A stretch of 37,612 nucleotides of DNA from Dysgonamonadaceae bacterium (GTDB lineage Bacteria; Bacteroidota; Bacteroidia; Bacteroidales; Azobacteroidaceae). The translations under genes were made by a program, and so were the position numbers. The stretch covers positions 1 through 37,612 of the forward strand of contig JAISFI010000071.1 in assembly GCA_031263685.1 (NCBI GenBank), given 5' to 3'. The notes beneath the pieces are model-generated. The model made no database searches, was not told the DNA's origin, and saw nothing but the letters and a program-made list of their open reading frames with translations. Shown here piece after piece: positions 1,114 to 36,870 of this stretch; within the stretch, counting starts at the first letter, position 1; every line of letters begins with the position of its first letter.

Positions 1114-1154
1114 TGACGGAATTATAATTGTCATATATTTATTGCGAGACGAAC

Positions 1155-2258
1155 ATGAAACAAAAACGTAAAGTCATATTAAACATTTTTTGCAGCACCT
1201 TTTTCTTTCTTGCGGCGCTACCATCTTTAAACGTACAACATGCAAATGCACAAAACGTCGACAACATGTTTCCGAACATCGTCTTTACCCGTACCGAATA
1301 CAATACATGGAAATCGTATATTGAGGCTGATGAATTGTCCGAAGGAAAGATCGTGTATTCCGACATGATACGCTTATTGGCCGTGAGAACCATCCGCGAC
1401 AATATCGTACCTTCGCCGGTTGCCAATCTGGACGTTACAGGCGCTAAGGAAAAGATAGACGATAACATGAAACGTATGCAAGCGCTCTGTTTCCACTATG
1501 CGTTCACCCAAGACGAAACCTGCCTGAATAAAGCCAAAGAATTCTATTTAGCCTGGGCGGCCGTCAACAATGCAAAAGCAGAGAACTCTCCCGGCGAAAC
1601 TGCCTACACACCCGGCATAGAAGCCTATTCGATTATCCGCAACTGCATCGATGCGACCTCACGTGCCAGCATCGACGCATGGATTAGAAAGCGGGCAAAC
1701 GTTGCTAAGGCCGATCGCGTACGCGCCAATAACTGGGAAACAATCCGCCTGCAATTCCTGCTGCATTACGGCTTGATACTTAACGACCAGGCGATTCTCG
1801 ACAGTTTTAAGAGCGGATACGAAGCTTTTATCCCCAAGAATATCTATCCCAACGGTACTACAGAAGATTTACTGGGACGGGATGCTTTCGCTTATCATGC
1901 TTATAACCTGCTGTTTTACGCCCGGATATTGAAAGCGCAAGCCGCTTACTACGGCCCCGAATACGCTCATGCCGAATACATCAAAGAACATCGCTGGGGT
2001 GCATCCATCCAAAAAGCGGTCGATTTCTGGAAACCGTTTCTGCTTTATCCCGACAAATATACCCATACGGAATTTGTCGAATCGGAATGGGCGCCCGATA
2101 AAACCCGAAACGATTACAATAAAACATACAAACCCGGCGAAACAATTTATGTTGTAGAAGAGTTTTACTATATGGACAAAACGCTTTACGAATATATTCG
2201 TAAATACAAAAGCAACACAACATTACCCTGTTGGCTCAGCGCCCTGAGATGGAAATAA
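1155..2258 (+). CDS. Alginate lyase-fold family protein (putative polysaccharide lyase)
   Basis: 367 residues from the ATG at 1155. An upstream in-frame TTG at 1128 would only add a nonapeptide before an already complete signal peptide (MKQKRKVILNIFCSTFFFLA..., cleavage near NA-Q at 32-33). The mature part is helical and fits the (alpha/alpha)n toroid of the alginate lyase/PL5-like superfamily: NNWETIRLQFLLHYG at 192-206 and a GRDAFAYHAYNLLFYARI segment at 241-258 in place of the usual catalytic R...H/Y block. Where PL5 enzymes have Asn-His, this protein has Asn-Asn-Trp, so its substrate or activity may differ. It is the first gene of the PUL, 26 bp before susC1. Its products would be unsaturated uronides, matching GH88 downstream. 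Fold likely; substrate unknown. Confidence 0.65.
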   Translation: MKQKRKVILNIFCSTFFFLAALPSLNVQHANAQNVDNMFPNIVFTRTEYNTWKSYIEADELSEGKIVYSDMIRLLAVRTIRDNIVPSPVANLDVTGAKEKIDDNMKRMQALCFHYAFTQDETCLNKAKEFYLAWAAVNNAKAENSPGETAYTPGIEAYSIIRNCIDATSRASIDAWIRKRANVAKADRVRANNWETIRLQFLLHYGLILNDQAILDSFKSGYEAFIPKNIYPNGTTEDLLGRDAFAYHAYNLLFYARILKAQAAYYGPEYAHAEYIKEHRWGASIQKAVDFWKPFLLYPDKYTHTEFVESEWAPDKTRNDYNKTYKPGETIYVVEEFYYMDKTLYEYIRKYKSNTTLPCWLSALRWK

Positions 2259-2284
2259 ATAAACGATTCAAAATTATATGCGCT

Positions 2285-5200
2285 ATGATAAAACATTTTT
2301 TGAGCACTTATACATTTTTGCTTGTCCTGCTGTTCGCAAGCGCAACAGTGACAAATGCACAACCGTCCGCTCCCAACAATAAGATTCAGGGAGTGGTGTA
2401 CGACTCGCAGGGCGAAACGCTGATCGGCGTATCCATCCTGCTGAAAGGAACAGGTAACGGAACGGTGAGCGACGTAGATGGCCGTTTCTCCATTGCGGCG
2501 CCGCCCGCAAGTCTCCTGGTCTTCTCTTACCTCGGCTATGAGACACAAACAGTCACCGTGCAGGCCGATATGAACAATCTGAAAATCGTCATGCAGGAAA
2601 ACAGCAAAGTCCTGGACGAAGTTGTTGTAGTAGGCTACGGCGTACAGAAAAAGCAGACTGTAACCGGCGCTATTTCTACAATCAAAACAAAGGAACTGAC
2701 CGACATTCCCGTTTCCAACCTCAACAATGCACTGGCTGGAAAAGTACCCGGACTGGTCACCATCCAACCTTCGGGGCGTCCCGGAGAAGACGTCGCCAAC
2801 ATCTACGTGCGCGGACAGTCTACCTGGGTAGATTCCAGTCCGCTGATTATTGTGGATGGCATGGAACGTGAAAGTTTCTCGCAAATCAACCCGAACGAAG
2901 TCGAAAGCATCTCCGTCTTGAAAGATGCTTCCTCTACTGCCGTCTATGGGGTGCGAGGCGCCAATGGCGTTATTCTTTTGACAACCAAACGCGGTGTTGA
3001 AGGAAAACCACGCATCAGCCTCTCGGCCAACTGGGGCCTTCAGCAACCAACGCAAATCCCTGAATTTCTGGATTCCTACCATCAGTTACTCCTGAAGAAA
3101 CAGGCCTACCTCAACGACAATAAAAATCCGGAAGCGGAAGAGCCTGCCTTGCTGAGCAATGAAGCGCTGGAAGGGTTTCGACTGGGAACAGACCCGTACA
3201 AATATCCCAACGTAGTTTGGTATCACGAATTGACCAAAAAGTTCACTCCTCAACAACAATACAGCATCGATGTTTCGGGAGGAACGCCGGTTATCAAATA
3301 CTTCATTTCACTGGGCTACCTCTCGCAGTCGGGTATCTTCAAATACACCAACCTGCAAAAGGATTACCATGCCGACACGTATTATCACCGCTTCAATTTC
3401 CGGTCGAATCTGGATGTAAAAATCAACAAATATCAAACACTTACCACCAATATCAGTGGCCGGATACAGGAGAAAAACGGTTTTCCCAATGTCGACAACC
3501 TGATACAGACGCTGATTGCCAAATCGCCCTATCGGCATCCGATGTTTAATCCCGACGGTACCCTGTCGGCCATTGAGGGCAGCGGAAATCCGATTTCGAA
3601 AATAGCCTATTCCGGTTACGAAAATACGAAAACCAACAACTACGACCTGACAGGCTTGCTGCACAACGACCTGAGCTTTATCACACCCGGACTTTCTTTC
3701 GACGCTTCGGTGTCGTATACGAGCAATGTGGGCGTCCTCAAGAAATACACCGACCAGATAGACACCTACTATTATTCACCGATCACCGGAAAGTATGCGC
3801 AGATTACGGAAGATGAGCCTTTTGCTTACAGCGAAGAACGCTATCCGGAGTCATTCAAACGGGAAAGTCTCCAGTTGAAATTGAATTACAACAAGACCAT
3901 CGCCTCCCTCCACGACTTGAAATTTACAGCCGTATATAATCAGCAAAAAGACTTTTCCAATATCTCCATCCCGAACGTGCTGATGGGATATGCCGGCCGG
4001 GTCGAATACATTTATGCCAATAAGTATATGGGAGAATTTAATGTCGGATACAACGGATCGGAAAACTTCGCCAAAGGGCATCGTTTCGGACTGTTCCCCG
4101 CTTTTTCCGTTGGATATATCATCAGCGAAGAAAAATTCATGGAGCGGATACAGCCCATTCTGCCGTACCTGAAGATACGCGCTTCCGTTGGCTGGGTTGG
4201 AAATGATAAAATAGGCAATAATCAACGCTTCCTGTATCAGGGCGCTTACAATTACTATCCCGCTTCCAACATCAACCAGTCGCAAAACTACATGTTCGGC
4301 ACCAACAATCCGAGCAACTCCGGCGGTATTGCCGAGTTGAGGAGCGAAAACCGGGAATTGACTTGGGAAACTGCCCTGAAACGAAACATCGGTATCGACG
4401 GCAATCTGTTCCAAAACAATCTCCTGTCTTTCAGTTTCGACTACTTTTACGAATACCGCAAAAACATCCTGATGCAGGCGCGGTCACTGATGCAAACAAC
4501 CGGTATTCCTTCGCCCGTCTACAACATCGGAGAGGTAAAGAACTACGGATTTGAAGCCGATTTGACGCATCGCCACAAGATTGCTTCCGTCGAATATTAC
4601 CTGAAAGGTACCTTCAGCTTTGCCCGAAATAAAATCATCAATTACGACGATCCGGGAAAAACGCCCGATTACCAGCGATATGCCGGCTACCGGATTGGGC
4701 AGTTCAGAGGCTATCAGGTAATTGGTTTCTTTGAAAATGAAGACGATATTGCCCGTTCGCCCAGCCAGGCATCATTGGGAGGTCCCATCATTCCCGGCGA
4801 CTTAAAGTATCTCAATTACAACGACAGCGACAACGTTATCGACGATAAGGACATCATCCCCATCGGATATTCCAACATACCGGAAATTACGTTCTCGTTC
4901 ACCCCCGGATTTTCATGGAAAGGATTCGACGCATCCGTCCTCTTTCAAGGCGCAGCACATTCGTCGGTCTTCTTTACTTCCAATGCAGGATATGAATTTG
5001 GAGGCGCAGCCGGTGGCGGACAGGTATCGAAGGTACACCAGAATTACTGGACACCGGAAAACCGCGATGCCGCCTATCCCTCGCTGCACGTCAACACGAA
5101 GCACAGCAACAAAAATCTCAACTCGTTTCATTTGAAAAAAGGAGATTACCTGCGCTTGAAAACCATTCAGATCGGCTACACGCTCCCCAGAGCACAATCG

Positions 5201-5359
5201 CAAAAAATCGGAGCAGAGTTGATACGCATCTTCGCCAGTGGAAGCAACATCTTTACCTGGTCTCACATCGATAACTTCGACCCGGAAGTCATCAAGTCGA
5301 GCGGTGAAGTATATCCGCAGCAAACAGTCTACAACCTTGGTATAAACATCAATTTTTAA
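2285..5359 (+). CDS. SusC/RagA-family TonB-dependent transporter (SusC1)
   Basis: 1024 residues from the ATG at 2285, chosen because a signal peptide (MIKHFLSTYTFLLVLLFASA...NA-Q, 1-26) starts there; earlier in-frame starts would overlap the lyase gene. In order: carboxypeptidase-regulatory-like domain (about 33-105, with GVVYDSQGETLIGVSI and GRFSI), TonB-box-like segment (VLDEVVVVGYG, 109-119), plug domain with the SusC signature (VDGMERE, VESISVLKDASSTAVYGVRGANG, 190-228) and a large outer-membrane beta-barrel to the C-terminal aromatic strand NLGININF. It imports oligosaccharides across the outer membrane using TonB-ExbBD energy. It partners with SusD1, whose ATG begins 4 bases after this stop. 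Full length for the family. Confidence 0.95.
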   Translation: MIKHFLSTYTFLLVLLFASATVTNAQPSAPNNKIQGVVYDSQGETLIGVSILLKGTGNGTVSDVDGRFSIAAPPASLLVFSYLGYETQTVTVQADMNNLKIVMQENSKVLDEVVVVGYGVQKKQTVTGAISTIKTKELTDIPVSNLNNALAGKVPGLVTIQPSGRPGEDVANIYVRGQSTWVDSSPLIIVDGMERESFSQINPNEVESISVLKDASSTAVYGVRGANGVILLTTKRGVEGKPRISLSANWGLQQPTQIPEFLDSYHQLLLKKQAYLNDNKNPEAEEPALLSNEALEGFRLGTDPYKYPNVVWYHELTKKFTPQQQYSIDVSGGTPVIKYFISLGYLSQSGIFKYTNLQKDYHADTYYHRFNFRSNLDVKINKYQTLTTNISGRIQEKNGFPNVDNLIQTLIAKSPYRHPMFNPDGTLSAIEGSGNPISKIAYSGYENTKTNNYDLTGLLHNDLSFITPGLSFDASVSYTSNVGVLKKYTDQIDTYYYSPITGKYAQITEDEPFAYSEERYPESFKRESLQLKLNYNKTIASLHDLKFTAVYNQQKDFSNISIPNVLMGYAGRVEYIYANKYMGEFNVGYNGSENFAKGHRFGLFPAFSVGYIISEEKFMERIQPILPYLKIRASVGWVGNDKIGNNQRFLYQGAYNYYPASNINQSQNYMFGTNNPSNSGGIAELRSENRELTWETALKRNIGIDGNLFQNNLLSFSFDYFYEYRKNILMQARSLMQTTGIPSPVYNIGEVKNYGFEADLTHRHKIASVEYYLKGTFSFARNKIINYDDPGKTPDYQRYAGYRIGQFRGYQVIGFFENEDDIARSPSQASLGGPIIPGDLKYLNYNDSDNVIDDKDIIPIGYSNIPEITFSFTPGFSWKGFDASVLFQGAAHSSVFFTSNAGYEFGGAAGGGQVSKVHQNYWTPENRDAAYPSLHVNTKHSNKNLNSFHLKKGDYLRLKTIQIGYTLPRAQSQKIGAELIRIFASGSNIFTWSHIDNFDPEVIKSSGEVYPQQTVYNLGININF

Positions 5360-5363
5360 CGTC

Positions 5364-7064
5364 ATGCAACACAGAAAAAACAGTTTCCGTTACAGTTTAC
5401 TCCTCCTCATCGTGGGGGTACTGACCTCCTGTGTGGATATTTTCAACGAAAAGCTACTGGAACAAACGCCCGAACAGGACCTGGATTTCGAAAAAGTGTT
5501 TTCCGATTACGAGCAGTTCCGCAAATATGCCGACTATACCTACACATACATGCCCTGCCACCTGGGACGGATGTGGAATTCCCTGAACTGCGCTATCTCG
5601 GACGAGGCCGAAGGCCTGGGTCTGAACAACTGCTCGACCGTCTTCAACAACGGCGCCTGGAGCGGCGCTACCGTTACGGTGGGAAGTTCGATCGAATCGA
5701 ATGCCGCACTCGAACTCGGCGAGCTGTGGAAAAAGCTGTATGCCGGTATTCGACAGGCAAATATGGCATTGGACAATATGGATCGGATTCAAAATTATCC
5801 TTCCGCAACGGTAAAGGAAAGGATACGGGGCGAACTGTATTTCATTCGCGCTTACCTCTATTTTGAGTTAATCAAGCGTTGGGGCGGCGTTCCTGTTTTC
5901 GATAAATCTCTGAACATCAACAACGATGTACTGGATAAACCGCGCGACAGTTACGACCAGTGCGTCCAGTTTATCACCGCCGATTGCGACCGTGCCGCCG
6001 CTATCCTGGCGCCCATCGAAAACATCGAAAACGGACGGGCAACGCAAGGCGCTGCCTTAGCCCTGAAATCGAGAACCCTCCTCTACGCCGCCCGGAAACT
6101 GAACAATCCCGACGAACGGGTCGAAAAGTGGCAAGCCGCTGCCGCTGCCGCAAAAGCCGTCATCGACCTGCAAAAATATTCCCTGCACGGCGATTATGTA
6201 AACCTCTTTTTCGAGCCGGTTTGCAATGAAATCATCCTGAACCGTCCGCGACCGGCGATGAATTTTGAGCAGGGACACACCGACAATTCCAATTTCCTGG
6301 TGCGCTTTATCGTTCCCGAAGGATACAACGGATGGATGGGCACCGGCGTTACCCAAAACCTGGTCGACATGTTTGAAGACAACCGCGGTTATCCGATTCA
6401 CGACGCCGGCAGCAACTACAACCCGGACAAGCCATACGAAAACCGCGATCCGCGTTTCAAGATGACGATCCTCTACAACGACCGCACCTGGCACGACCGG
6501 AAAATGGAATTTTACAGAAACGGACGGGATTACGGCAGCAACTATACCAATCCCCTCGGCTACGGCATTGCCAAGTTCTGGAAAGAATCGCATCAGCGCT
6601 ATCAGCGCACAACGACTTACCTGAATTACATTGTTTTCCGTTATGCCGAAATTCTCCTGAATTTTGCAGAAGCGCAAAATGAAGCAGGAGGTCCGGAAAG
6701 CAATCTGGAAGGTCTTTCCGTTCGGGACGCCCTCTCGCAAGTTCGTGGTCGCGTGGGGCAGGTTCCCGTTCCGGTTGCCGTTTCGGGCACAAAGGAAGCC
6801 ATGCGCGAGCGGATCAAAAACGAGCGCGCCGTAGAACTCTGTTTTGAAGAACAGCGCTGGTATGACGTTATCAGTTGGCATGAAGGCGTTAAATATTTCG
6901 ACAGTACGATTCGGGGCATGAAAATAGAAAAAGAAGGCAACAAATTCACCTACGAAATCTATGATTATGAAAAACGGATATTTAAAGAACACATGCACCG
7001 TTACCCGATTCCAAACGAAGAAATCTATAAAAGTCAATACCTGGAACAAAACCCAGGCTGGTAA
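5364..7064 (+). CDS. SusD/RagB-family outer-membrane lipoprotein (SusD1)
   Basis: 566 residues. The signal peptide ends in a lipobox, LTSC, with the lipidated Cys at 23. The family pattern is clear: an N-terminal TPR-like helical half (LWKKLYAGIRQANMALDNM; ELYFIRAYLYFELIKRWGGVPV) and the C-terminal SusD domain with RYAEILLNFAEAQNEAGG and ERAVELCFEEQRWYDVISW, ending in YPIPNEEI...NPGW. It sits as a lid on SusC1 and captures glycan at the cell surface. It starts 4 bases after the susC1 stop and lies 36 bases before susC2, consistent with one operon. Confidence 0.95.
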   Translation: MQHRKNSFRYSLLLLIVGVLTSCVDIFNEKLLEQTPEQDLDFEKVFSDYEQFRKYADYTYTYMPCHLGRMWNSLNCAISDEAEGLGLNNCSTVFNNGAWSGATVTVGSSIESNAALELGELWKKLYAGIRQANMALDNMDRIQNYPSATVKERIRGELYFIRAYLYFELIKRWGGVPVFDKSLNINNDVLDKPRDSYDQCVQFITADCDRAAAILAPIENIENGRATQGAALALKSRTLLYAARKLNNPDERVEKWQAAAAAAKAVIDLQKYSLHGDYVNLFFEPVCNEIILNRPRPAMNFEQGHTDNSNFLVRFIVPEGYNGWMGTGVTQNLVDMFEDNRGYPIHDAGSNYNPDKPYENRDPRFKMTILYNDRTWHDRKMEFYRNGRDYGSNYTNPLGYGIAKFWKESHQRYQRTTTYLNYIVFRYAEILLNFAEAQNEAGGPESNLEGLSVRDALSQVRGRVGQVPVPVAVSGTKEAMRERIKNERAVELCFEEQRWYDVISWHEGVKYFDSTIRGMKIEKEGNKFTYEIYDYEKRIFKEHMHRYPIPNEEIYKSQYLEQNPGW

Positions 7065-7100
7065 CCGGTTTTCAGTTTTTAACTCTTAGCATATAAATCT

Positions 7101-9878
7101 ATGACTCCTATCAAAAAAATATCCTTTCTGATTTTTATCTCTCTGTTGCCGGCAGGCTTCAGGGGACAGGAAATCGATACCGTAAGCTACGCTGCCGACC
7201 GTACCGGAGAGATCGCTATCGCTTACGGCAAAACGACGAAAGAAGCCGCTGCTTCTGCTCTATCTGCCGTTTACGCTATCGACCTGCAAAAAAATGCAGT
7301 CACTACACTGGAAGAATCCCTGAACGGGACACTCTCCGGCCTGTATTCCGCTAAAAACGGCGGACAAAAATTCGGCGCCCGAAACTACAATTTCTTCATC
7401 CGTGGAAAAGCAACTACCGCCGATGCGTCGCCGCTGATCCTCGTCGATGACGTGGAAGCCAATATTGAACTCCTCGATTTCAATGAGGTGGAAAGCGTAA
7501 ACATCCTGAAAGACGCCTCGGCGCTGGCCATATACGGCATGAGAGGCGCCAATGGCGTGATTCTCATCAAAACCAAACGCGGCTACAATGCACCAAACAC
7601 TGTTAAGCTCGATATCCGGATGGGGATACAAACGCCATTGTCTTGGGGTAAGCGCCTGAATGCTTATGATTATTCCACACTGTACAACGAAGCGCTGACA
7701 AATGATGGAGGCGTTGGAATTTACACTCCGGATGCCTACCTGAACAATTCCAATCCTTACGCCTATCCCGATGTCGATTTCGGCGACCTGTTCCTGAAAC
7801 AGCAGTCGCTTAGCCAGCAATATAACTTTACCGTACAGGGAGGAACTCAAACTGCCCGATACTTCTTTCTGACCGGATATACGAAGCAGGGCGGACTGTT
7901 CGCACTCCCGGACAAACATGACGGGATAAATCAAAAAAGTTATGAACGCTATAACTTCCGTTCAAACATAGACGTAAATTTGGGCGCCGGATTCAACATG
8001 AGTGTCGATGTATCGGCCATCTTCGACTATAACCGTTCGCCGTGGATGAACAGTTCCGGAAATGCCAATGCACTCTCCAATGCACTGGTCAATTTGATTG
8101 TCAACACGCCGGCCAATGCTTTTCCGGTATGGAACGGGGATGGAAGTTTAGGAGGCACCTCCGTTTATCTCAACAATCCGCAAGGCATTTTACAGCGGGG
8201 CGGAACAAGACGGGACGAGCACAAGCTGCTGGCATCGAACGCAAAGATCTCTAAAGATCTTCCTTTCATCACACAGGGACTGAAGGTTTATGCCGTCTAT
8301 CACTTCGAGAATTACAATTCATCCTATAAATCGGCCTACAAGCAGTTTGCCGTATATCACTATAATCCCGCTGCCGACACCTACACCGCCTACGGTACTA
8401 ACGACACGAAAACAACTACTGCCGGAGGACAAACTTCGGAATATTACCGCAACAACAACATTTTCGCCGGACTGGAATACGAGCGAACGTTCAACCGGCA
8501 TCAGGTTGAAGGCCTGGCCTTCTTCAACCGTTCGCAGTCGAGCGTGAGCGGCGACGTGCCCGACTACCACTATCAGGGATGGGCTGCGCGTGCACAGTAC
8601 GGATACGATCACCGCTACTATGCCGAACTCTCGGCGGCCTGCCAGGGTTCAAACCGTTACCGGCACGGCAAGCGGTACGGGTTTTTCCCGGCCATTGGCC
8701 TGTCGTGGGTTTTATCGAACGAAAACTTCCTGCAAAACAGCCCGGCTGTAGATTTTCTGAAGCTGAGAGTCTCGACCGGAATAAACGGAAATGACAAAAC
8801 CCTCGGCAATCGTTTTGCCTGGCGTCAATCCTGGTACACGGGATCGGGCTACGGCTTCGGAAATCCGAATGCCGTGGGCGACGGCTCTTATGAAGGAGCG
8901 CTGGCCAACGAAAACGCTACCTGGGAAAAAGCAGCGAAAGCGAACGTGGGCATCGACTTCTCGACCCTGGGCGGCGATTTGTCGGCAACGGTCGATTTGT
9001 TTTCCGAAAGAAGAAAGCATATTCCCGTCGAAGAAAGCAGCCAGACACCCTCACTGATTGGTATCGCCCTGCCGCAGGTGAACGAAGGAATCATCACAAA
9101 CAAAGGCGTCGAAGCGGCGCTCAATTACAGCAAGACGACAGGTTTCTGGCGCTTTTCGATTGGCGGAAACTTCCTCTTTGCCCGCAATAAAATCGTCGAC
9201 CTGAAAGAGCCCGATTATTCCTACGACTGGATGTACCGGAAAGGAAATTCCATCAACACGATATACGGACTGGTGGCCGACGGTATTTACCGGACACCGG
9301 AAGAAATCGCCCACGCTTCCAAATCTTCCTACACGACCCTCACGCCGGGCGACATTCGCTATGTGAATCAAAATCCCGGCGATGACGATATTATTAATCA
9401 GGCCGACAGGGTGCCTATCGGCAACGCCTTCCCCGAAATCTTCTATGGCCTGCAGTTGGGCGTTTCTTACAGGAACTTCGACTTTGCCGGCTTCGGAAAA
9501 GGGGTGGCGCGGAGCGACGTTTATTTCAAACCGGAACAGTTTTCGGTCTACGCACGCGACAATCGCTGGCAACCGTCACAGCCTGAAGGGCAACATCCCA
9601 AACTCAGCATCTCCAACGTTCATAACAGCCAGACATCTTCCTTCTGGTTGCAATCGGGCAGCTATTTTCAAATCAGCAGCCTGGAATTGGGCTATACCCT
9701 GCCGCAATCCATACTCAAGAGCCTGTCTATTGCCGGCGTTCGTGTTTACTGTAATGTGAACAACGTATTCACGTTCAGTTCCGAACGCGAAAAGCGCAAT
9801 CCGGAGGCTTTACTGGCAGGATACACGGAATATCCGCTGTTGAGAACGTATCTGTTTGGCATCTCCGTTAAATTATAA
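7101..9878 (+). CDS. SusC/RagA-family TonB-dependent transporter, short N-terminus (SusC2)
   Basis: 925 residues, about 100 shorter than SusC1. After a signal peptide (MTPIKKISFLIFISLLPAGF, cleavage near RG-Q) it goes almost directly to a TonB-box-like stretch (GEIAIAYGKTTKEAAASA) and the plug (SLNGTLSGLYS; FFIRGKATTADASPLILVDDVE; VESVNILKDASALAIYGMRG). The carboxypeptidase-like regulatory domain present in SusC1 is missing. The beta-barrel looks complete to the end (TYLFGISVKL). Such shortened SusC proteins occur in second-pair transporters, but the loss may alter its TonB interaction. Paired with SusD2 12 bases downstream. It probably takes up a second form of the same glycan, by context only. 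Confidence 0.93.
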   Translation: MTPIKKISFLIFISLLPAGFRGQEIDTVSYAADRTGEIAIAYGKTTKEAAASALSAVYAIDLQKNAVTTLEESLNGTLSGLYSAKNGGQKFGARNYNFFIRGKATTADASPLILVDDVEANIELLDFNEVESVNILKDASALAIYGMRGANGVILIKTKRGYNAPNTVKLDIRMGIQTPLSWGKRLNAYDYSTLYNEALTNDGGVGIYTPDAYLNNSNPYAYPDVDFGDLFLKQQSLSQQYNFTVQGGTQTARYFFLTGYTKQGGLFALPDKHDGINQKSYERYNFRSNIDVNLGAGFNMSVDVSAIFDYNRSPWMNSSGNANALSNALVNLIVNTPANAFPVWNGDGSLGGTSVYLNNPQGILQRGGTRRDEHKLLASNAKISKDLPFITQGLKVYAVYHFENYNSSYKSAYKQFAVYHYNPAADTYTAYGTNDTKTTTAGGQTSEYYRNNNIFAGLEYERTFNRHQVEGLAFFNRSQSSVSGDVPDYHYQGWAARAQYGYDHRYYAELSAACQGSNRYRHGKRYGFFPAIGLSWVLSNENFLQNSPAVDFLKLRVSTGINGNDKTLGNRFAWRQSWYTGSGYGFGNPNAVGDGSYEGALANENATWEKAAKANVGIDFSTLGGDLSATVDLFSERRKHIPVEESSQTPSLIGIALPQVNEGIITNKGVEAALNYSKTTGFWRFSIGGNFLFARNKIVDLKEPDYSYDWMYRKGNSINTIYGLVADGIYRTPEEIAHASKSSYTTLTPGDIRYVNQNPGDDDIINQADRVPIGNAFPEIFYGLQLGVSYRNFDFAGFGKGVARSDVYFKPEQFSVYARDNRWQPSQPEGQHPKLSISNVHNSQTSSFWLQSGSYFQISSLELGYTLPQSILKSLSIAGVRVYCNVNNVFTFSSEREKRNPEALLAGYTEYPLLRTYLFGISVKL

Positions 9879-9890
9879 ATTTCTACCCCT

Positions 9891-11588
9891 ATGAAACCGT
9901 TAAGTAAAATATATTTCTTCCTTTTTCTCGCACTCATCCTCTCCTCCTCGTGCGAAGACTTTTTAGATCCCGCCAAAGATGGAACGCTGAACCAGGAGGA
10001 TGTTTGGGGAAGCACTCGCCGTTCTTTCGGCCTGCTCAATAACGCCTACAACAACCTGATCGGAAACTACAGCCGGATTTCGGACGCCATGCTCGCCGCC
10101 GGTTGCGATGAAGCGCTGCACGCCGATCCGGCCAACCCCATTAAAGGCTTCAACGATGGCACCTGGAGCAAGTATAATCTCGTAGAAAACGTTTGGGACA
10201 ACTGCTACGAAGGTATCCGAAAAGTAAATCTCTTCCTGGAAAACGCCGATAATATCACGCTCCCGAAAAGAGATTCCAATACCGGTACCGACGAATCCAT
10301 TGTCCGAACCATCGACCGGATGAAAGGAGAAGCCCGATTCCTGCGCGCCTTCTTCCACTTCGAGCTGGTGAGAAGATACGGTGGCATTCCCGTCATCGAC
10401 CGCACGCTGACGAAGGAAGAAGCCAGGTGCATGGAACGACAATCGATCGACAGTTGTTTTCATTTCATCTTCAACGATTGCGATTCGGCAGCGGTGAGGC
10501 TTCCGGGAAGCTATCTGAACACAGTGCCCGGATTCGACGACACGAAGGATGTAGGACGCGCTACTTCCTGGGCGGCAAAAGCCCTGAAAGCGCGCGCCCA
10601 ACTCTACTATGCCAGTCCGCTCTTCAATCCGGAAAATGACCGGTCGCGCTGGAAAGACGCCTATCTTACGGCCGAAGATGTGATCCGGAGAGGTCCTTTC
10701 AGTCCCTGGCAATTCAACAGCAACGGTAATATGACCAACCTGTTTGTCAGCAACTCAACAATGGGACTCTATCACAAAGAAATCATCTTCTCCACCAGCT
10801 ATACTGCCAATACAACTACCGAGCGGCTCAATGTACCGATCTCTTATGGAGGGAAGGGACTTACCTGTCCTACCCAAAATCTGGTCGAAGCGTTCAACGA
10901 TCCGCTGTTCCTGAACCGCGATCCTCGACTGGCGATGACGGTGCTGCAAAACGGCGACCTGCTGAACATCAACGACCGGTCGGACAGTATCAAAACATAC
11001 ACCGGCGGGAAAGACGCTCCCGAATCCGACCCCTCGGCCTCAAAAACGGGATACTATCTCGCCAAATTTGTAAAGCAGGCAGCGGCCTCTTCCACACCGC
11101 CTGCCGTATGGGAAGGAAGAACGGTCAATACCACCAAGACCAAAATCCTGTTCCGGCTGCCGGAAATCATCTATATCTTCGCCGAAGCCTATAACGAATA
11201 TCACGCAGCGCCCAGCAACGATGTATATATTTATCTCGAAAGAATTTTGACGCGCGCCGGCGTCTCCCTGTCCGGTGGCGCTTTGCCGGACATGAATCAG
11301 GCAGAAATGCGCCGCTTTATCCGCAAGGAACGGCAGGTAGAACTCGCTTTCGAAGAGCACCGATTCTTCGATATTCGCCGCTGGCGACTGATGGACGATC
11401 CCGCCGAACGGGAAAAATACCTCAACATTCGCGGACAGCGAATTTCTATCCAGGCCGACGGTACCCCGAACACGCGAATCGAAACCGTTCAGCAACGCGT
11501 ATGGGACGATAAAATGTATTTCTATCCCATTCCCGAATCGGAAATCATTGCCTCGAAATCCTTAACACAAAACGAAGGATGGGAGTGA
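9891..11588 (+). CDS. SusD/RagB-family outer-membrane lipoprotein (SusD2)
   Basis: 565 residues. The signal peptide MKPLSKIYFFLFLALILSSSC gives a lipidated Cys at 21. SusD hallmarks: ENVWDNCYEGIRKVNLFLEN, EARFLRAFFHFELVRRYGGIPV, LPEIIYIFAEAYNEY, KERQVELAFEEHRFFDIRRW and the closing YPIPESEI...NEGWE. It forms the surface glycan-binding partner of SusC2. Its stop codon TGA overlaps an ATG (TGATG at 11586-11590) that opens a frame through the downstream repeat array. Confidence 0.95.
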   Translation: MKPLSKIYFFLFLALILSSSCEDFLDPAKDGTLNQEDVWGSTRRSFGLLNNAYNNLIGNYSRISDAMLAAGCDEALHADPANPIKGFNDGTWSKYNLVENVWDNCYEGIRKVNLFLENADNITLPKRDSNTGTDESIVRTIDRMKGEARFLRAFFHFELVRRYGGIPVIDRTLTKEEARCMERQSIDSCFHFIFNDCDSAAVRLPGSYLNTVPGFDDTKDVGRATSWAAKALKARAQLYYASPLFNPENDRSRWKDAYLTAEDVIRRGPFSPWQFNSNGNMTNLFVSNSTMGLYHKEIIFSTSYTANTTTERLNVPISYGGKGLTCPTQNLVEAFNDPLFLNRDPRLAMTVLQNGDLLNINDRSDSIKTYTGGKDAPESDPSASKTGYYLAKFVKQAAASSTPPAVWEGRTVNTTKTKILFRLPEIIYIFAEAYNEYHAAPSNDVYIYLERILTRAGVSLSGGALPDMNQAEMRRFIRKERQVELAFEEHRFFDIRRWRLMDDPAEREKYLNIRGQRISIQADGTPNTRIETVQQRVWDDKMYFYPIPESEIIASKSLTQNEGWE

Positions 11589-11797
11589 TGAACGAAATTG
11601 GGGGCGCGCCCCGGAACTTTGGGGGAACGCCCCCAGTCTTTGGGGGAACGCCCCCAATCTTTGGGGGAACGCCCCCAATCTTTGGGGGAACGCCCCCAAT
11701 CTTTGGGGGAACGCCCCCAATCCTTGGGGGAACGCCCCCAATCTTTGGGGGGCGCCCCCGAAAAGCAGAAGACATTAATTTTCAGTTTTATAAATAA
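11588..11797 (+). CDS. Possible coupled ORF encoding Gly/Pro heptapeptide repeats
   Basis: The start codon at 11588 overlaps the susD2 stop (TGATG), the usual geometry of translational coupling. The 69-codon frame runs through the 21-bp array, so each DNA unit gives one heptapeptide of the type GGTPPIF, and ends with a charged tail (RPRKAEDINFQFYK). Caution is needed: the repeat is also stop-free in other frames on both strands, so an open frame here is weak evidence. If made, the product would be a short low-complexity Gly/Pro protein without signal peptide. I rate it as unproven. Confidence 0.2.
   Translation: MNEIGGAPRNFGGTPPVFGGTPPIFGGTPPIFGGTPPIFGGTPPILGGTPPIFGGRPRKAEDINFQFYK
11597..11764. 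repeat. 21-bp GC-rich palindromic tandem repeat array (8 units)
   Basis: Units begin at 11597 (degenerate), 11618, 11639, 11660, 11681, 11702, 11723 and 11744 (degenerate, last). The six central units are nearly identical, with one or two substitutions in the first and sixth. Each unit holds a 7-bp inverted repeat around a four-base loop: TTGGGGG-AACG-CCCCCAA. Transcribed, it would form a string of at least six strong hairpins between susD2 and the first beta-helix gene. There is no T-run after it, so it is not a classical terminator. Possible roles are mRNA stabilization, damping of downstream expression, or a replication-slippage locus. Confidence 0.9.
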
Positions 11798-11831: not shown

Positions 11832-13724
11832 ATGAAACGAATGAAAGTACTTTTTTTATCGCTTTTAGCCATTTCGGCTATACAGGCAAAGGTGTATTAT
11901 GTAAGTCCCGACGGCGACAATTCCGACGGTTCTTCGTGGGGAAAAGCATTCCACTCGCTCCTGGATGCGCAGCAAACGGTTAGCAATCCCTGCGAAATCT
12001 GGGTGAAACAGGGAACATACAATGTGGTAGATACTACGTTGACAATGATGAACGGCGTAAACGTGTACGGCGGATTTCTGGGAAATGAAGCAAACCTGAA
12101 CGCAAGGAACAGCGATCCTTCGCTAACGATCCTCAACGGAAACAAGACAAAGCGGATCCTCACTGCCGCCGATAACCTGACCGTCGAAACCGTTTGGGAC
12201 GGCTTCACGATTCAAAATGGAAACAGCGGTAATGCCGGCGGCGTTTCCCTGTTGAAAAACGCGACCCTGCAAAACTGCATCATCCAGCAAAATAAAAATG
12301 CCGTCAACAGCGGTGGCGGCGTGTATATGAACACCAATGACACCGATTCCGTCAAGCTAATTAACTGTATCGTAAGGGAAAATGCAGTATATTACAATGG
12401 AACGGCAACATCTCCCGCCGGTGGCGGCGGCGTTTATATCCATGACGGAGCGGCAGCAGTTATTCGCGCCTGTACCATTGAAAATAACAAGGTAGATGGC
12501 GACAGCTATACCGGCTCCAGAATGTACGGTGGCGGGGTCTTTATGAACGACGGCGCCATAGAACAGTCCACCGTCTCGAAAAACAAGGCGACGAATATCG
12601 ATTTTGAAACCGGTAAGCTTACCACCGTCGGTTTCATCAACGCCGGCGGTATCATGGTAATGACGCCTGCGGCAGGAAGCGTGCGAATCAGCAACTGCGT
12701 GATAGAAGGAAACGTGGCAGAAGTACAATCCGGCGGCGGCATCATGATCAATCCCTATTGGACAAGCAGTGTGGTGGCAGCCGGCGTAACGGTCGAAAAC
12801 ACGATCATCGCCAATAACTATTCCCGCCAGCAGGGCGGCGGCGTTTTCTGCGATTCTCAAAACGAAGGCTCGACTGCTGCCTACAACTTCATCAACTGCG
12901 TAATCGCCAACAATGAAGCCAATCTGAATCCGGGTGGCGGCGTTTTCATCAACAACAAAGCCGGATCGACCGTCAAGTTCACCAACAGCACCATCGTAAA
13001 CAACCGAATGAACACCTATAATTATGGTGGAGCCGGAATTTACTACAACAATATCTCTGCCGACATAACCAACTGTATCTTCTGGGGAAACCTCAATGCA
13101 GGCACAACGCCCCTGAAACATCATTTGAGAACAAAAGACGTTGCCGGCAACCGGGTCATTTACTGCGCTTTCGACCAGCGTTACGTAGAGTCGGAAATCA
13201 CATCGGCCTCCGATCCGACCGATATTCAGGGCACGCTTTCGCTCGCAAACGAAAATGACGGTGCAAGCGGCAATCTGGTACAGTTTATCCGTCCAACATC
13301 GTTCAACGGCATTGCCAAAGACGAGGCACAGCAAACTGAAATCTCGCAGGCGCTGTGGGCTATCCGTCCAACTTCGGCCTGTGTAGATGCAGGCGCTACG
13401 GTCAGAGACTTGAAATACGACCTCCTCGGCACCGAGCGTCCTTATGGAGGTAAATATGACATCGGCGCCTACGAATACAACCCGGCAACAGGGTCTTCGA
13501 TACGCCAAACGACCACCGGCAATGCTCCGAAAGCTTACGGCATAAAGGGCGCCATTGTAATCGACAATACGGATGCCGCCACGCAGGCAACAGTCTATAC
13601 GCTTCTGGGCGCAAACTGCAAGACTGCGATGCTGAAGGAAGGTGAAAACAGAATAAACATCGCTCAGCCGGGTATTTATATCGTTAAAGCCGGAAATAAT
13701 ACTGCAAAAGTGTTAGTCAAATAA
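11832..13724 (+). CDS. T9SS-sorted right-handed beta-helix protein (1)
   Basis: 630 residues. Signal peptide MKRMKVLFLSLLAISAIQA, then the motif KVYYVSPDGDNSDGSSWGKAF that opens many secreted parallel beta-helix proteins. Repeated rungs of the type GGGVYI/NCIVRENAV (about 120-420) indicate a pectate-lyase-like right-handed helix. Around 505-550 is the ACVDAGA...DIGAYEYN segment of 'choice-of-anchor Q' proteins. The last ~65 residues form a T9SS-type tail (ATVYTLLGANCKT...GIYIVKAGN...KVLVK). It may bind or cleave polysaccharide outside the cell; no catalytic residues could be assigned. A close paralogue follows 30 bases downstream. Confidence 0.85.
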   Translation: MKRMKVLFLSLLAISAIQAKVYYVSPDGDNSDGSSWGKAFHSLLDAQQTVSNPCEIWVKQGTYNVVDTTLTMMNGVNVYGGFLGNEANLNARNSDPSLTILNGNKTKRILTAADNLTVETVWDGFTIQNGNSGNAGGVSLLKNATLQNCIIQQNKNAVNSGGGVYMNTNDTDSVKLINCIVRENAVYYNGTATSPAGGGGVYIHDGAAAVIRACTIENNKVDGDSYTGSRMYGGGVFMNDGAIEQSTVSKNKATNIDFETGKLTTVGFINAGGIMVMTPAAGSVRISNCVIEGNVAEVQSGGGIMINPYWTSSVVAAGVTVENTIIANNYSRQQGGGVFCDSQNEGSTAAYNFINCVIANNEANLNPGGGVFINNKAGSTVKFTNSTIVNNRMNTYNYGGAGIYYNNISADITNCIFWGNLNAGTTPLKHHLRTKDVAGNRVIYCAFDQRYVESEITSASDPTDIQGTLSLANENDGASGNLVQFIRPTSFNGIAKDEAQQTEISQALWAIRPTSACVDAGATVRDLKYDLLGTERPYGGKYDIGAYEYNPATGSSIRQTTTGNAPKAYGIKGAIVIDNTDAATQATVYTLLGANCKTAMLKEGENRINIAQPGIYIVKAGNNTAKVLVK

Positions 13725-13754: not shown

Positions 13755-15407
13755 ATGAAACAAGTATATTTATTTTTAAGCGCTTGCATGCTCGCCGGTA
13801 TGGTTCATGCAACAGTATATTATGTAAGTCCGGAAGGCGATAACAGCGACGGAAAGACTTGGGCTACGGCTTTTCAGTCGCCCGCAAAAGCACTGTCTAC
13901 CGTCACTTCCGGCAGTCACGAGGTGTGGGTGAAACAGGGCACATACATTTCGGCAACAACGCTCAAATGGATTCCCGGCGCCAATTTTTACGGCGGCTTT
14001 ACCGGTACGGAAATCAGCCGTGACGAACGAAACACCGATCCTTCACTCACCATCCTGGAGGGAACCCGTACCAGTGGCGTTTTAACTACGCCACAATCGG
14101 CCTACAGCACGCTGTGGAACGGCTTTACCATTCAAAAAGGAAAAGCCACCGGCGGTGGCGGCGGTATTTTCCTGCAAAGGAACACAACGCTCGAAAATTG
14201 CATCGTGCAGGATAACGAGGCTACCAATTACGGTGGCGGCGGTATTTATATCCAGGATGCAAATAATGGCCGGATACAAATCCTCAACTGTATTGTGAGA
14301 AACAATAAACTCACGCCAACGGCGGCCGATCGCGACGGCGGCGGTATCACCGTAAGGGCAACCAAATCGTCGGACGTCCTGATCGGCAACTGTATCATTG
14401 AAGGCAATATTGTCGATGCAGGCGCCCAGTCAAGGGCTTTCGGCGGGGGAATCAGTTTGCTGTCCGGCGCTACCGTAGCAAATTGCATCATACGCAACAA
14501 TCAGGTAACAAAGCCTTCGGGAAGTAACTGTAATGGCGGCGGTATGTATATTTCTCTCGATGATGCAGGCGTTTCGGCCAACATCAGCAACTGCATCATC
14601 GCCAATAACTTCTGCGATGCCGGCAACGGCGGTGGCGTCTTCGTCACCGAGAAAGCAGGCAACGTATCTTTCGGCAATTGCCACATCGTAAACAACCAGA
14701 TAACCTACGCCAGCTATGGCGGTGGCGGCATTTTTACGAAAAACCCGGCAACTGTTGTCAATTGTGTTTTCTGGGGCAATGACGCTCCGGGAAGTACCCC
14801 CAAACATTTCCGCACAGACGGCGGCGGAAGTGTGAGCTATTGCGCTTTCGATGCGCAGGCCAACGGTACTGCTTTCGGAACGGCCACTGTTGCAGATAAT
14901 ATAACGGTCGAAACCGAAAACCTCGGCAACCTGGCAAATGCTCATTATGCGGCTTTCGTTCGTCCAACCGCATTTGCCGGAAAGGCATCGAACGACATTG
15001 AACTGGCCGAACTGCAGCAGGCCGACTGGTCGCCGCTCGCCACTTCCGCCCTCATCAATGCCGGAACAACTGTCGCGGTAATTACCGATGATATGGCCGG
15101 AATCGCCCGCCCGCAAGGAACTGCCTACGATATTGGCGCTTACGAATTTGAAGAAAAAACCACCCCCGGTACAGGTATCGACCCGGCGCAGGTGAAGACG
15201 GCTTTCGATGCGCCTGTCTATACAACATCGGGAAACATTGTCCTGAAAAATGCGGAAGATAACGCGTCGGCCATCATCTACGATATTACCGGACGCACCG
15301 TGAAAAATGTGCATCTCGCAGTTGGAGAAAACACAATCTCCGTTCCATCCCGTGGTCTTTATTACGTAAAAACAGGCCAATCATTACTCAAAGTAATGGT
15401 ACGCTGA
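13755..15407 (+). CDS. T9SS-sorted right-handed beta-helix protein (2)
   Basis: 550 residues, a tandem paralogue of the preceding protein: same signal-peptide type, same opening (TVYYVSPEGDNSDGKTWATAF), same YGGFTG and NERNTDPSLTIL blocks, same Gly-rich rungs (GGGGIYIQ, NCIVRNN, GGGMYI), the same anchor-Q motif (INAGTTV...DIGAYEFE) and a clear T9SS type A tail (SAIIYDITGRTVKNV...RGLYYVKTG...KVMVR). It is about 80 residues shorter, mostly through fewer helix rungs. Secreted, surface-located, probably acting on or binding the PUL substrate. Enzyme class not determinable by eye. Confidence 0.85.
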   Translation: MKQVYLFLSACMLAGMVHATVYYVSPEGDNSDGKTWATAFQSPAKALSTVTSGSHEVWVKQGTYISATTLKWIPGANFYGGFTGTEISRDERNTDPSLTILEGTRTSGVLTTPQSAYSTLWNGFTIQKGKATGGGGGIFLQRNTTLENCIVQDNEATNYGGGGIYIQDANNGRIQILNCIVRNNKLTPTAADRDGGGITVRATKSSDVLIGNCIIEGNIVDAGAQSRAFGGGISLLSGATVANCIIRNNQVTKPSGSNCNGGGMYISLDDAGVSANISNCIIANNFCDAGNGGGVFVTEKAGNVSFGNCHIVNNQITYASYGGGGIFTKNPATVVNCVFWGNDAPGSTPKHFRTDGGGSVSYCAFDAQANGTAFGTATVADNITVETENLGNLANAHYAAFVRPTAFAGKASNDIELAELQQADWSPLATSALINAGTTVAVITDDMAGIARPQGTAYDIGAYEFEEKTTPGTGIDPAQVKTAFDAPVYTTSGNIVLKNAEDNASAIIYDITGRTVKNVHLAVGENTISVPSRGLYYVKTGQSLLKVMVR

Positions 15408-15422
15408 TACACTAAAAAAACT

Positions 15423-15449
15423 GCAGGGGCAAGCTCTGCCTGCCCCTGC
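15423..15449 (-). terminator. GC-rich hairpin between beta-helix and GH88 genes
   Basis: A 9-bp perfect stem, GCAGGGGCA/TGCCCCTGC, with a 9-base loop. The adjacent run of seven A lies on the left, so the U-tract of an intrinsic terminator would be on minus-strand RNA, opposite to the surrounding genes. On the plus strand it is only a hairpin. Function unclear. Confidence 0.45.
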
Positions 15450-15504
15450 TTCGCAAGGACGAGATGCTATTTCCGTCAAATATTACTCAAAACAAACCCA
15501 TGTT

Positions 15505-16779
15505 ATGAATACAATTTGTAAATGTGTACTTTCTCAGGTTTTGCTATATTTCTGCCTTTCGGGTTGCTCGCACATTCCGGACAACGACAGGAATACGACA
15601 AAAGAATTACAGTTCATCCGGGAAAACATAGATTTTATTGCCCAACAAACAACCCTCATGCTCGAAACAACAGGCGCCCCTACCGGCAAGAACTATCCCC
15701 GAAGCATGAACGATGCCGGCCAGCTCGTAACTACCGGCATGTATGACTGGACGCCCGGCTTCTTCCCCGGCTCGCTGTGGTATCTCTATGAACTGACCGG
15801 CGACTCTGTCTGGAAAGACAAAGCCGAACAGTGGACGCAAACATTGGAGCCGCTGAAAACCTTTACCGGCCATCATGACCTGGGATTCATGATGTATTGC
15901 AGTTACGGAAACGCCAATCGCCTGGCGCCCAAGCCCGAATATAAAGACATTCTCCTCCAAAGCGCTTACTCCCTCGCTTCCCGCTTTTCGGAAGAAACGG
16001 GATGTATCAAGTCGTGGAATCACCGCGTTGCATGGGATGGCGAAACGGAGTGGTTTTATCCGGTCATCATCGACAATATGATGAACCTGGAAATGCTTTT
16101 TTTTGGCGCAAAAACATCGGGCGATAAACGCTTGTACGACATTGCTGTAACACATGCCAATACTACGCTGCAACATCATTTCAGGGAAGATTTCAGTTCG
16201 TACCATGTGGTAGATTACGATACCGTTACCGGCGTTGTGAAACATCGGGCTACCTGCCAGGGTTTCAGCGACAACTCAACATGGTCGCGCGGACAGGCCT
16301 GGGCTATTTACGGTTACACGATGATGTACCGCGAAACAAAGGACGCTCAATACCTGGATGCTGCCGTGAATCTCGCAGCTTATTATCTGTCCCACCTACC
16401 GGAAGATTTAATCCCTTACTGGGATTTTAATGCCGGCGAAGCAGGCTATACGCCCGACAAGGATTCTTACGCGACACAATACTGGGAAAAGCCGAAAGAT
16501 GTTTCCGCCGCCGCTGTCGTATGTGCTGCTTTTTTTGACTTGGCAACATATACGCACCGTTCGGAATATACCGACAAAGCTATTCAAATGCTTCACAACC
16601 TGTCGTCCGAAAAATATCGCGCCGAGTTGGGGAAAAATGCTCATTTCATTCTGATGCACAGTGTGGGCAGTATTCCTCACATCAGCGAAATAGACAAGCC
16701 GCTGGTTTATGCCGACTATTATTTTTTGGAATCGCTGGTCAAATATACCGCTTTTTTAAGAAACTTTACATCTTTATGA
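15505..16779 (+). CDS. GH88 unsaturated glucuronyl hydrolase, lipoprotein
   Basis: 424 residues. The lipobox LSGC places the lipidated Cys at 21. The (alpha/alpha)6-barrel pattern of glycoside hydrolase family 88 is clear: MYDWTPGFFPGSLWYLYELTGD, HHDLGFMMY with candidate catalytic Asp125, YPVIIDNMMNLEML with candidate Asp190, and the signature WSRGQAWAIYGYTMMYRET. These enzymes remove the 4,5-unsaturated uronic acid that polysaccharide lyases leave at the non-reducing end, by hydration of the double bond. It therefore completes the pathway begun by the lyase-fold protein at the start of the cluster. Lies 97 bases after the second beta-helix gene, with a hairpin between. Confidence 0.92.
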   Translation: MNTICKCVLSQVLLYFCLSGCSHIPDNDRNTTKELQFIRENIDFIAQQTTLMLETTGAPTGKNYPRSMNDAGQLVTTGMYDWTPGFFPGSLWYLYELTGDSVWKDKAEQWTQTLEPLKTFTGHHDLGFMMYCSYGNANRLAPKPEYKDILLQSAYSLASRFSEETGCIKSWNHRVAWDGETEWFYPVIIDNMMNLEMLFFGAKTSGDKRLYDIAVTHANTTLQHHFREDFSSYHVVDYDTVTGVVKHRATCQGFSDNSTWSRGQAWAIYGYTMMYRETKDAQYLDAAVNLAAYYLSHLPEDLIPYWDFNAGEAGYTPDKDSYATQYWEKPKDVSAAAVVCAAFFDLATYTHRSEYTDKAIQMLHNLSSEKYRAELGKNAHFILMHSVGSIPHISEIDKPLVYADYYFLESLVKYTAFLRNFTSL

Positions 16780-17962: not shown

Positions 17963-18129
17963 GACGAAAGCGCCTCGATGATTTTGTTTTTTTGAGAATC
18001 CAGACTCAATGTTGAATGTTTTTTACTTTTGCACAGCTATTATCATAAATAATACTAACAGAAAGGAAATTTCTATCGGAAAATAATGTTTTTCCATAAG
18101 AACTGCTTTATCTTTGTACTGTGTTTTTC

Positions 18130-18195
18130 ATGGTATTAGATTTAAAGAAGTTAACAAAATCAAAATTTTTGAAGAAGAGGTTGCCGAGATGGTAA
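18130..18195 (+). CDS. Possible 21-residue basic micro-ORF
   Basis: ATG at 18130 opens a 21-codon frame (begins MVLDLKKLTKSKF, ends KKRLPRW) whose TAA lies inside the terminator stem. The peptide is strongly basic, with eight Lys/Arg. The position, a few bases after the putative start of the short transcript and overlapping the terminator, is like a leader peptide of an attenuator. It lacks an SD, which is normal in this phylum. No homologue is recognised; chance is quite possible. Confidence 0.2.
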   Translation: MVLDLKKLTKSKFLKKRLPRW

Positions 18196-18208
18196 CCTCT
18201 TCTTTTTT
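18174..18208 (+). terminator. Intrinsic terminator downstream of exbD
   Basis: 12-bp stem, GAAGAGGTTGCC/GGTAACCTCTTC (one G-U pair), five-base loop GAGAT, followed by six T. A textbook rho-independent terminator 210 bases after the exbD stop. Confidence 0.85.
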
Positions 18209-18356
18209 AGTTATCTTTCACCCGACAATATTAATACCAAACTGAAATTAGTTTACATTATTTATTCTGCTTACAATGATTGAGATTCAGCTATTGAGAT
18301 TTAAAATAAATAAAACTAATGAGTGTTCTGTACTTAATTTGATTGTTATTGAGAAA

Positions 18357-36724: not shown

Positions 36725-36870
36725 AAGACGGTGATGTTGATCTCGTGAGACGGTAATGTTGATCTCGTGAGACGGTGATATTGATCGCATGAGACGGTTA
36801 TCTCGCGACGTCAACATCACCGTCTCGCGAGATCAAGACGGTTATCTTGCGAGATCAAGATAACCGTCTC
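36725..36870. repeat. Complex of 22-bp direct and inverted repeats
   Basis: Three tandem 22-bp units (36725-36746, 36747-36768, 36769-36790) follow GAGACGGTGATGTTGATCTC with few changes. A fourth, altered unit starts at 36791. Inverted copies then follow (TCAACATCACCGTCTC at 36811-36826; AAGATAACCGTCTC ending 36870), plus another direct copy at 36835-36850. The segment 36837-36870 alone makes a 14-bp perfect hairpin (AGACGGTTATCTTG and its complement). It lies between the HU-like gene and the sigma gene, both on the minus strand. No spacers of CRISPR type. Confidence 0.85.

Follow-up and report, generated by a model that had tools for sequence, protein, structure and literature searches.

The stretch of DNA analysed here (the window, 37,612 nucleotides of a contig from a Dysgonamonadaceae bacterium) carries an array of 21-bp palindromic units in the gap behind susD2, inside a PUL. 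The array is one of many that are dispersed in the same genome, and in nearly all of these the step is either close to 21-23 bp or a multiple of such a length. It is probably a lineage-private intergenic minisatellite that was seeded behind susD2 and grew there by slippage. The observations behind this reading are the dispersal of the repeat, an exact core found only in tandem, the homogeneity of the units and the absence of an array at the susD genes of relatives. The gap behind susD2 would first have received either a palindromic seed or an array that was still short, with transposition, gene conversion or template switching as candidate routes, and slippage between identical hairpin-forming units could then have driven both growth and homogenisation.

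Tandem Repeats Finder reports the array with a period of 21, 7.8 copies, a score of 261 and 0% indels, in agreement with the eight 21-bp units counted in an earlier note on this DNA (Table 1). The consensus unit, TTGGGGGAACGCCCCCAATCT, is made up of a 7-bp stem, an AACG loop and a TCT spacer. The GC-rich stem around AACG described in that note is indeed present, with five G-C and two T-A pairs, and the six units that it called almost identical are units 2-7, which have TTGGGGGAACGCCCCCAA in common (the last base of unit 2 is G). The outermost units (unit 1, TTGGGGGCGCGCCCC; unit 8, TTGGGGGGCGCCCCC) are palindromes of a degenerate form that lacks the AACG loop. The 18-bp core is identical in five inner units, and the window contains six matches to this 18-mer at up to three mismatches, against 0.03 expected from shuffled sequences. 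Composed of head-to-tail units within the 10-100 bp range and placed outside genes, the array has the build of a bacterial intergenic minisatellite. An assembly artefact is an unlikely source, because the same 21-bp unit sits on independent contigs. The exact copy number is uncertain in this fragmented assembly, since some contigs of the genome end inside arrays of other families.

Table 1. Coordinates of the array, of the neighbouring PUL genes (positions in the window) and of copies of the 23-bp family (positions in their own loci).
Feature	Position	Strand
Whole array, eight 21-bp units	11597..11764	+
Unit 1, degenerate, palindrome GGGGCGCGCCCC, no AACG loop	11598..11618	+
Units 2-7, near-identical hairpins TTGGGGG-AACG-CCCCCAA (unit 2: CCCCCAG end)	11619..11744	+
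Unit 8, degenerate, palindrome GGGGGCGCCCCC, no AACG loop	11745..11764	+
susD2 (PF07980, PF14322), directly upstream of the array, stop codon 9 nt ahead of unit 1	9891..11588	+
Right-handed beta-helix protein gene (PF13229), directly downstream of the array	11832..13724	+
Upstream PUL genes: alginate-lyase-family protein (PF05426), SusC1, SusD1, SusC2	1128..9878	+
Downstream PUL genes: second beta-helix protein, GH88/GH76-like protein	13755..16779	+
Putative MITE copies of the 23-bp family	L126 3203-3435; L141 4693-4885	

The genome to which the window belongs (3.99 Mb in 446 contigs) contains further copies of the unit, so that the repeat is dispersed at several intergenic loci: in tandem on contigs C362 (the window), C60 and C204, and as three degenerate units that retain the 21-bp step on C417. 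The C60 array has about twelve units between a minus-strand susC gene and a plus-strand gene, and the C204 array about two and a half units, in operon direction, between WbsX-like and CBM35/DUF5010 genes. ORF calling places the C60 and C417 copies between divergent genes. All 15 exact copies of GGGGGAAYGCCCCC in the genome lie inside arrays and none is solitary; one single near-match, with one mismatch, is located near the end of contig C32. Variants form runs within the C60 array, which, like the five identical inner cores of the window array, fits the description 'young or actively homogenized' given in the earlier note. The PUL on C204 also carries, beside its copy of the window family, an unrelated 21-bp array (CTTCGGGCTTGGGTACGAAAA, L021 7020-7128) that is not a hairpin by test.

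The search of related genomes suggested in the earlier note yielded these further copies in the genome itself and none elsewhere in the taxonomic family or order. The tandem motif was found in one of 45 genomes of the family, and the 18-mer at one mismatch in one of 393 genomes of the order, each time in the window's own genome. One contig, from a Treponema MAG, matched in a genome contig collection (84,980 species as described), and viral contigs gave no match to the tandem motif.

Along the array AACG and TCT take turns in separating the arms TTGGGGG and CCCCCAA, which makes hairpins possible in two registers. The second 7-bp stem, around TCT, is about equal in stability to the AACG stem, and the whole array is predicted to be able to form a single long stem interrupted by small internal loops. 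Folding gives z = -8.1 for RNA (array with its flanks) and z = -6.1 for DNA. In a hairpin test that compares unit rotations with shuffled units the window array passes (p 0.015), and it fails a stricter dyad test (p 0.15). Over 26 units, which are not independent of one another, stem pairs are retained in 167 of 182 cells and substitutions affect 35 of 364 stem positions versus 46 of 182 loop and spacer positions. As to the non-B DNA proposed from the G5 and C5 runs, the predicted RNA fold does not change when G-quadruplexes are allowed, and a G-quadruplex was rejected on this ground.

The gene context confirms the position between susD2 and the first beta-helix gene. The susD2 stop codon lies about 10 nt ahead of the array, which ends about 70 nt before the beta-helix gene, and the alginate-lyase-family protein, two SusC/SusD pairs, two beta-helix proteins and GH88/GH76-like protein of the PUL are encoded co-directionally. 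Because the array follows the susD2 stop so closely and in operon orientation, its hairpin chain would be part of the transcript. Judging from position and predicted folding, the transcript would form a very stable chain of hairpins that may slow 3'-5' exonucleases, and susCD mRNA would then be maintained at a higher level than that of the enzyme genes behind it. This protection of the susCD mRNA is put forward tentatively, and the C60 and C417 copies between divergent genes argue against it. In the same sense, the barrier to 3' exonucleases and the tuning of distal genes listed in the earlier note are possible roles of the predicted structure. The PUL offers a plain test case for the question of whether hairpin arrays between susD and enzyme genes set the mRNA ratio.

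A selected operon element, with the array setting the ratio of SusCD to enzymes as a stabiliser or attenuator of mRNA within the operon, is an unlikely explanation. It would account for the distance and direction of the array relative to susD2, for its predicted RNA folding energy of -121 kcal/mol and for the orientation of the arrays that could be classified in a sample of the genome (11 of 13 in co-directional gaps and 2 of 13 in convergent ones). It is also consistent with a perfect hairpin in one relative (L206, G019:C346), AACAATGGGGC-TTGT-GCCCCATTGTT, which has an 11-bp stem and stands a few nt behind the stop codon of the susD2 homolog, and with strong hairpins at two other susD genes of the same genome (L070 and L071, gaps of 83-94 bp). 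However, the homologs of susD2 in five members of the family (37-41% identity) all lack an array, four of the five have no hairpin at that place, and the gap behind them is 17-79 bp versus 243 bp in the window. Within the genome, 30 of 60 susD matches were fetched and 29 were evaluable; one of the 29, the window's, has an array, and most of the gaps are short and unstructured. The array moreover has no U-tract and no terminator match, and members of its family also lie between divergent genes. A hairpin common to the susD genes of PULs was rejected on the count of evaluable loci. Since a single susD locus has an array and the window family has two of its four loci between divergent genes by ORF calling, the array is not a PUL feature in this genome. 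Its position behind susD2 looks incidental, because the homologs and the other susD genes lack arrays and the C60 and C417 copies are divergent, and an effect on the mRNA is possible all the same.

Other assignments were considered for the array. The seven-codon length of the unit had been pointed out in the earlier note, and a coding role was rejected: the array follows the susD2 stop, and its freedom from stops in all six frames is matched by 20% of shuffled units. A 139-aa minus-strand ORF over the C60 array was judged spurious for the same reason. The array is not an intrinsic terminator, as AATCTTT, or a sequence very near to it, comes after each inner hairpin and the required T run behind a GC hairpin is lacking. 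A CRISPR array was likewise rejected, since the units abut and the stems are separated only by a near-constant 3-bp spacer. The array matches no Rfam family; elsewhere in the window, Rfam matches correspond to a FopS sRNA (RF04319, barely above the cut-off, 18121-18209) and a DUF805 cis-regulatory RNA (RF03081, 37289-37357).

Near-identical tandem units are prone to slippage, and the array consists of such units without indels, as would be expected of a contingency locus in which changes in copy number switch the expression of the downstream enzymes. Such switching is nevertheless very unlikely. Gain or loss of 21-bp units cannot alter a reading frame, the array lies outside any coding frame, and no promoter match was found at the array in a scan with a sigma-70 model, which does not fit Bacteroidota.

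The preferred reading, a minisatellite grown by slippage, has to be seen against the other arrays of the genome. Tandem Repeats Finder was applied to 61 loci (639,845 bases, window included), chosen by steps of contig number with the addition of C104, C172, C421, further parts of C204 and C280, and the window; being selected partly by contig, this 640-kb sample is not strictly random. Arrays were assigned to coding or non-coding DNA by ORF calls that ignore the arrays themselves, which replaced a plainer coding mask under which stop-free arrays, such as L097 and L131, had counted as coding. Every one of the 18 non-coding arrays that score at least 100 has a period of 21-23, 41-42, 46, 83 or 126 bp, a grouping made after the data were seen: 21 (five arrays), 22 (three), 23 (one), 41 (one), 42 (five), 46 (one), 83 (one) and 126 (one). 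The weight lies on the 16 arrays with periods of up to 50 bp, because multiples above 50 bp fill much of the number line. Three related pairs (L126/L141, L090/L133 and L143/L167) reduce the 18 arrays to 15 families; homology of the 42-bp array L125 with L141:9421 seemed likely by eye and received no support from BLAST. Two arrays that look intergenic, L099 (23 bp) and L183 (44 bp), were counted as coding under the ORF rule and are therefore absent from the 18. Among arrays in coding DNA of this sample (score of at least 60), the periods are 12, 15, 17, 18, 21, 23, 24, 27 bp and longer.

Exact 10-base repeats in 247 intergenic gaps recur most often at lags of 14 (15 gaps), 42 (14), 21 (13) and 84 (12), whereas shuffled gaps average 0.08 per lag. 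AT-rich direct repeats of 7 and 14 bp occur in many intergenic gaps of the sample and of relatives. The unit sequences of the arrays differ from locus to locus. Relatives keep the step less strictly: in one genus of the family (g2), 9 of 12 non-coding arrays with a period of at least 15 bp and a score of at least 60 have periods of 21-23 bp; in another (g3) neither of two does, and four genomes of the order are mixed. In the window itself, positions 36726-36798 hold a 22-bp array (AGACGGTGATGTTGATCTCGTG), and the same words recur directly behind it in larger inverted repeats.

In the hairpin test, 10 of 19 non-coding arrays of the genome reach p<=0.05 (combined p 1.6e-11), a set that includes the C60 and C204 arrays, which were chosen by motif; among coding arrays 3 of 13 do so. 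The other nine arrays of the 19, and the 12 of 21 that fail the stricter dyad test (nine pass), weigh against the minisatellite and hairpin reading. Since only part of the arrays pass these tests, hairpins are enriched but not universal, and the size of the step is the more constant feature. Exclusion of arrays from divergent gaps (0 of 13 arrays versus 35 of 223 gaps) was judged not significant, and the window family itself has two copies in such gaps.

Slippage alone does not explain the shared step of about 21 bp, and searches of the open-licence PMC literature listed no description of one. A process particular to this lineage, with a ruler of about 21 bp or two helical turns, might turn unrelated sequences into hairpin arrays between genes, as though DNA were copied in steps of that length by an enzyme or through a replication intermediate whose size is fixed. 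This idea, which remains doubtful, draws on steps of 21-23, 42, 84 and 126 bp at many loci, on the scarcity of indels and on a tendency to hairpins whatever the sequence. The same clustering of steps at 21, 42 and 84 bp, with few indels in the arrays, could be invoked for a helically phased array in which each unit binds a protein on one face of the DNA. Such a binding array is the most improbable of the alternatives: the units vary in sequence from one locus to the next, some families keep to steps of 22 or 23 bp, and three-turn steps (31-32 bp) are not prominent in the lag counts.

Several other minisatellite families are present in the genome. A 23-bp unit, ACACCACTGTTGTGTG, occurs on eight contigs (C30, C36, C173, C214, C226, C283, C289 and C330), with spacings of 23 bp or whole multiples of it. 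Its arrays are framed by TTACGCAARAGCATCNTGCA inverted repeats, found at both ends on six of the contigs (C30, C214, C226, C283, C289 and C330), and the end positions give an element length of 193 to 262 bp. By analogy, this family matches the design of a BrickBuilt-like MITE with terminal inverted repeats. A 22-bp palindromic unit, TTCACCGCCGRTGAAT, is found in tandem on five contigs (C28, C96, C140, C172 and C329), with the matches on C96 and C140 starting at most 10 bases from the contig start, and a 42-bp family with a perfect hairpin, TTTCTACCNNNGGTAGAAA, on four (C25, C177, C321 and C421). Fragmented assemblies can break at such arrays, which are then undercounted.

Porphyromonas gingivalis, the host of BrickBuilt, belongs to the Bacteroidales. 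The window array might similarly be the minisatellite core of a mobile, non-autonomous transposon, a possibility that the framed 23-bp family makes worth weighing and that would agree with the 19-bp leader common to the C60 and C204 copies and found nowhere else in the genome. It is nonetheless quite unlikely for the window array, because nothing significant in its flanks, be it a leader, a tail or a terminal repeat, is common to it and the rest of its family, and the GAAA/CGAAA direct repeat on either side of it is short enough to have arisen by chance.

Among known repeats, the REP/BIME elements of the GTAG and CGTC superfamilies are described in PMC3733652 as short extragenic palindromes that are sometimes clustered, with mRNA stabilisation among their proposed roles. 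The window unit is likewise a short, clustered extragenic palindrome. It differs in that its exact core is found only in tandem and neither a GTAG nor a CGTC tag is present on either strand of the tandem unit. No link to a RAYT gene was seen: one Y1_Tnp gene was found, on contig C128, and no hairpin array adjoins it. Heptamer direct repeats such as TAACTGA, which according to PMC4679880 are intergenic in some Bacteroidetes and form long arrays in some species, resemble the window repeats in being intergenic and direct, but those described there have a 7-bp period and no hairpin units; the AT-rich 7- and 14-bp arrays of the genome, which are separate from the window family, are of this heptamer length. 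The order G-run, C-run, G-run on one strand recalls the ITxF intrastrand triplexes, for which the search criteria of PMC4666352 specify stems 6-15 nt long with loops of 1-6 nt; the window array has runs of 5 nt and loops of 4 and 7 nt. A Treponema sp. MAG (JAISYA010000137.1, L053 5200-5650) has tandem GC hairpins, GGGGGGAATGCCCCCC, of similar build in a non-coding stretch, but with a step of mostly 23 bp and mixed stems (GGGCGG/CCGCCC), and it belongs to a different phylum.

BrickBuilt is described in PMC4596501 as intergenic tandem 23-nt direct repeats dispersed in one species, predicted to form long stem-loops and variable in repeat number; repeats of 22 and 41 nt are cited there as well. 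The window family is similarly intergenic, tandem, dispersed, predicted to fold and built on a unit of about two helical turns. Its unit, a G5/C5 palindrome of 21 bp, differs in sequence from that of BrickBuilt. In the same account BrickBuilt has a leader, a tail and IS5-like terminal inverted repeats, whereas none of these is demonstrable at the window copy and the 19-bp leader of C60 and C204 is the only such part in the window family. By the same description BrickBuilt is matched more closely by the 23-bp family of the genome. Should the 21-bp step hold, intergenic minisatellites of the Bacteroidales, namely BrickBuilt and PgRS of P. gingivalis and the families described here, may have one mechanism of birth in common.
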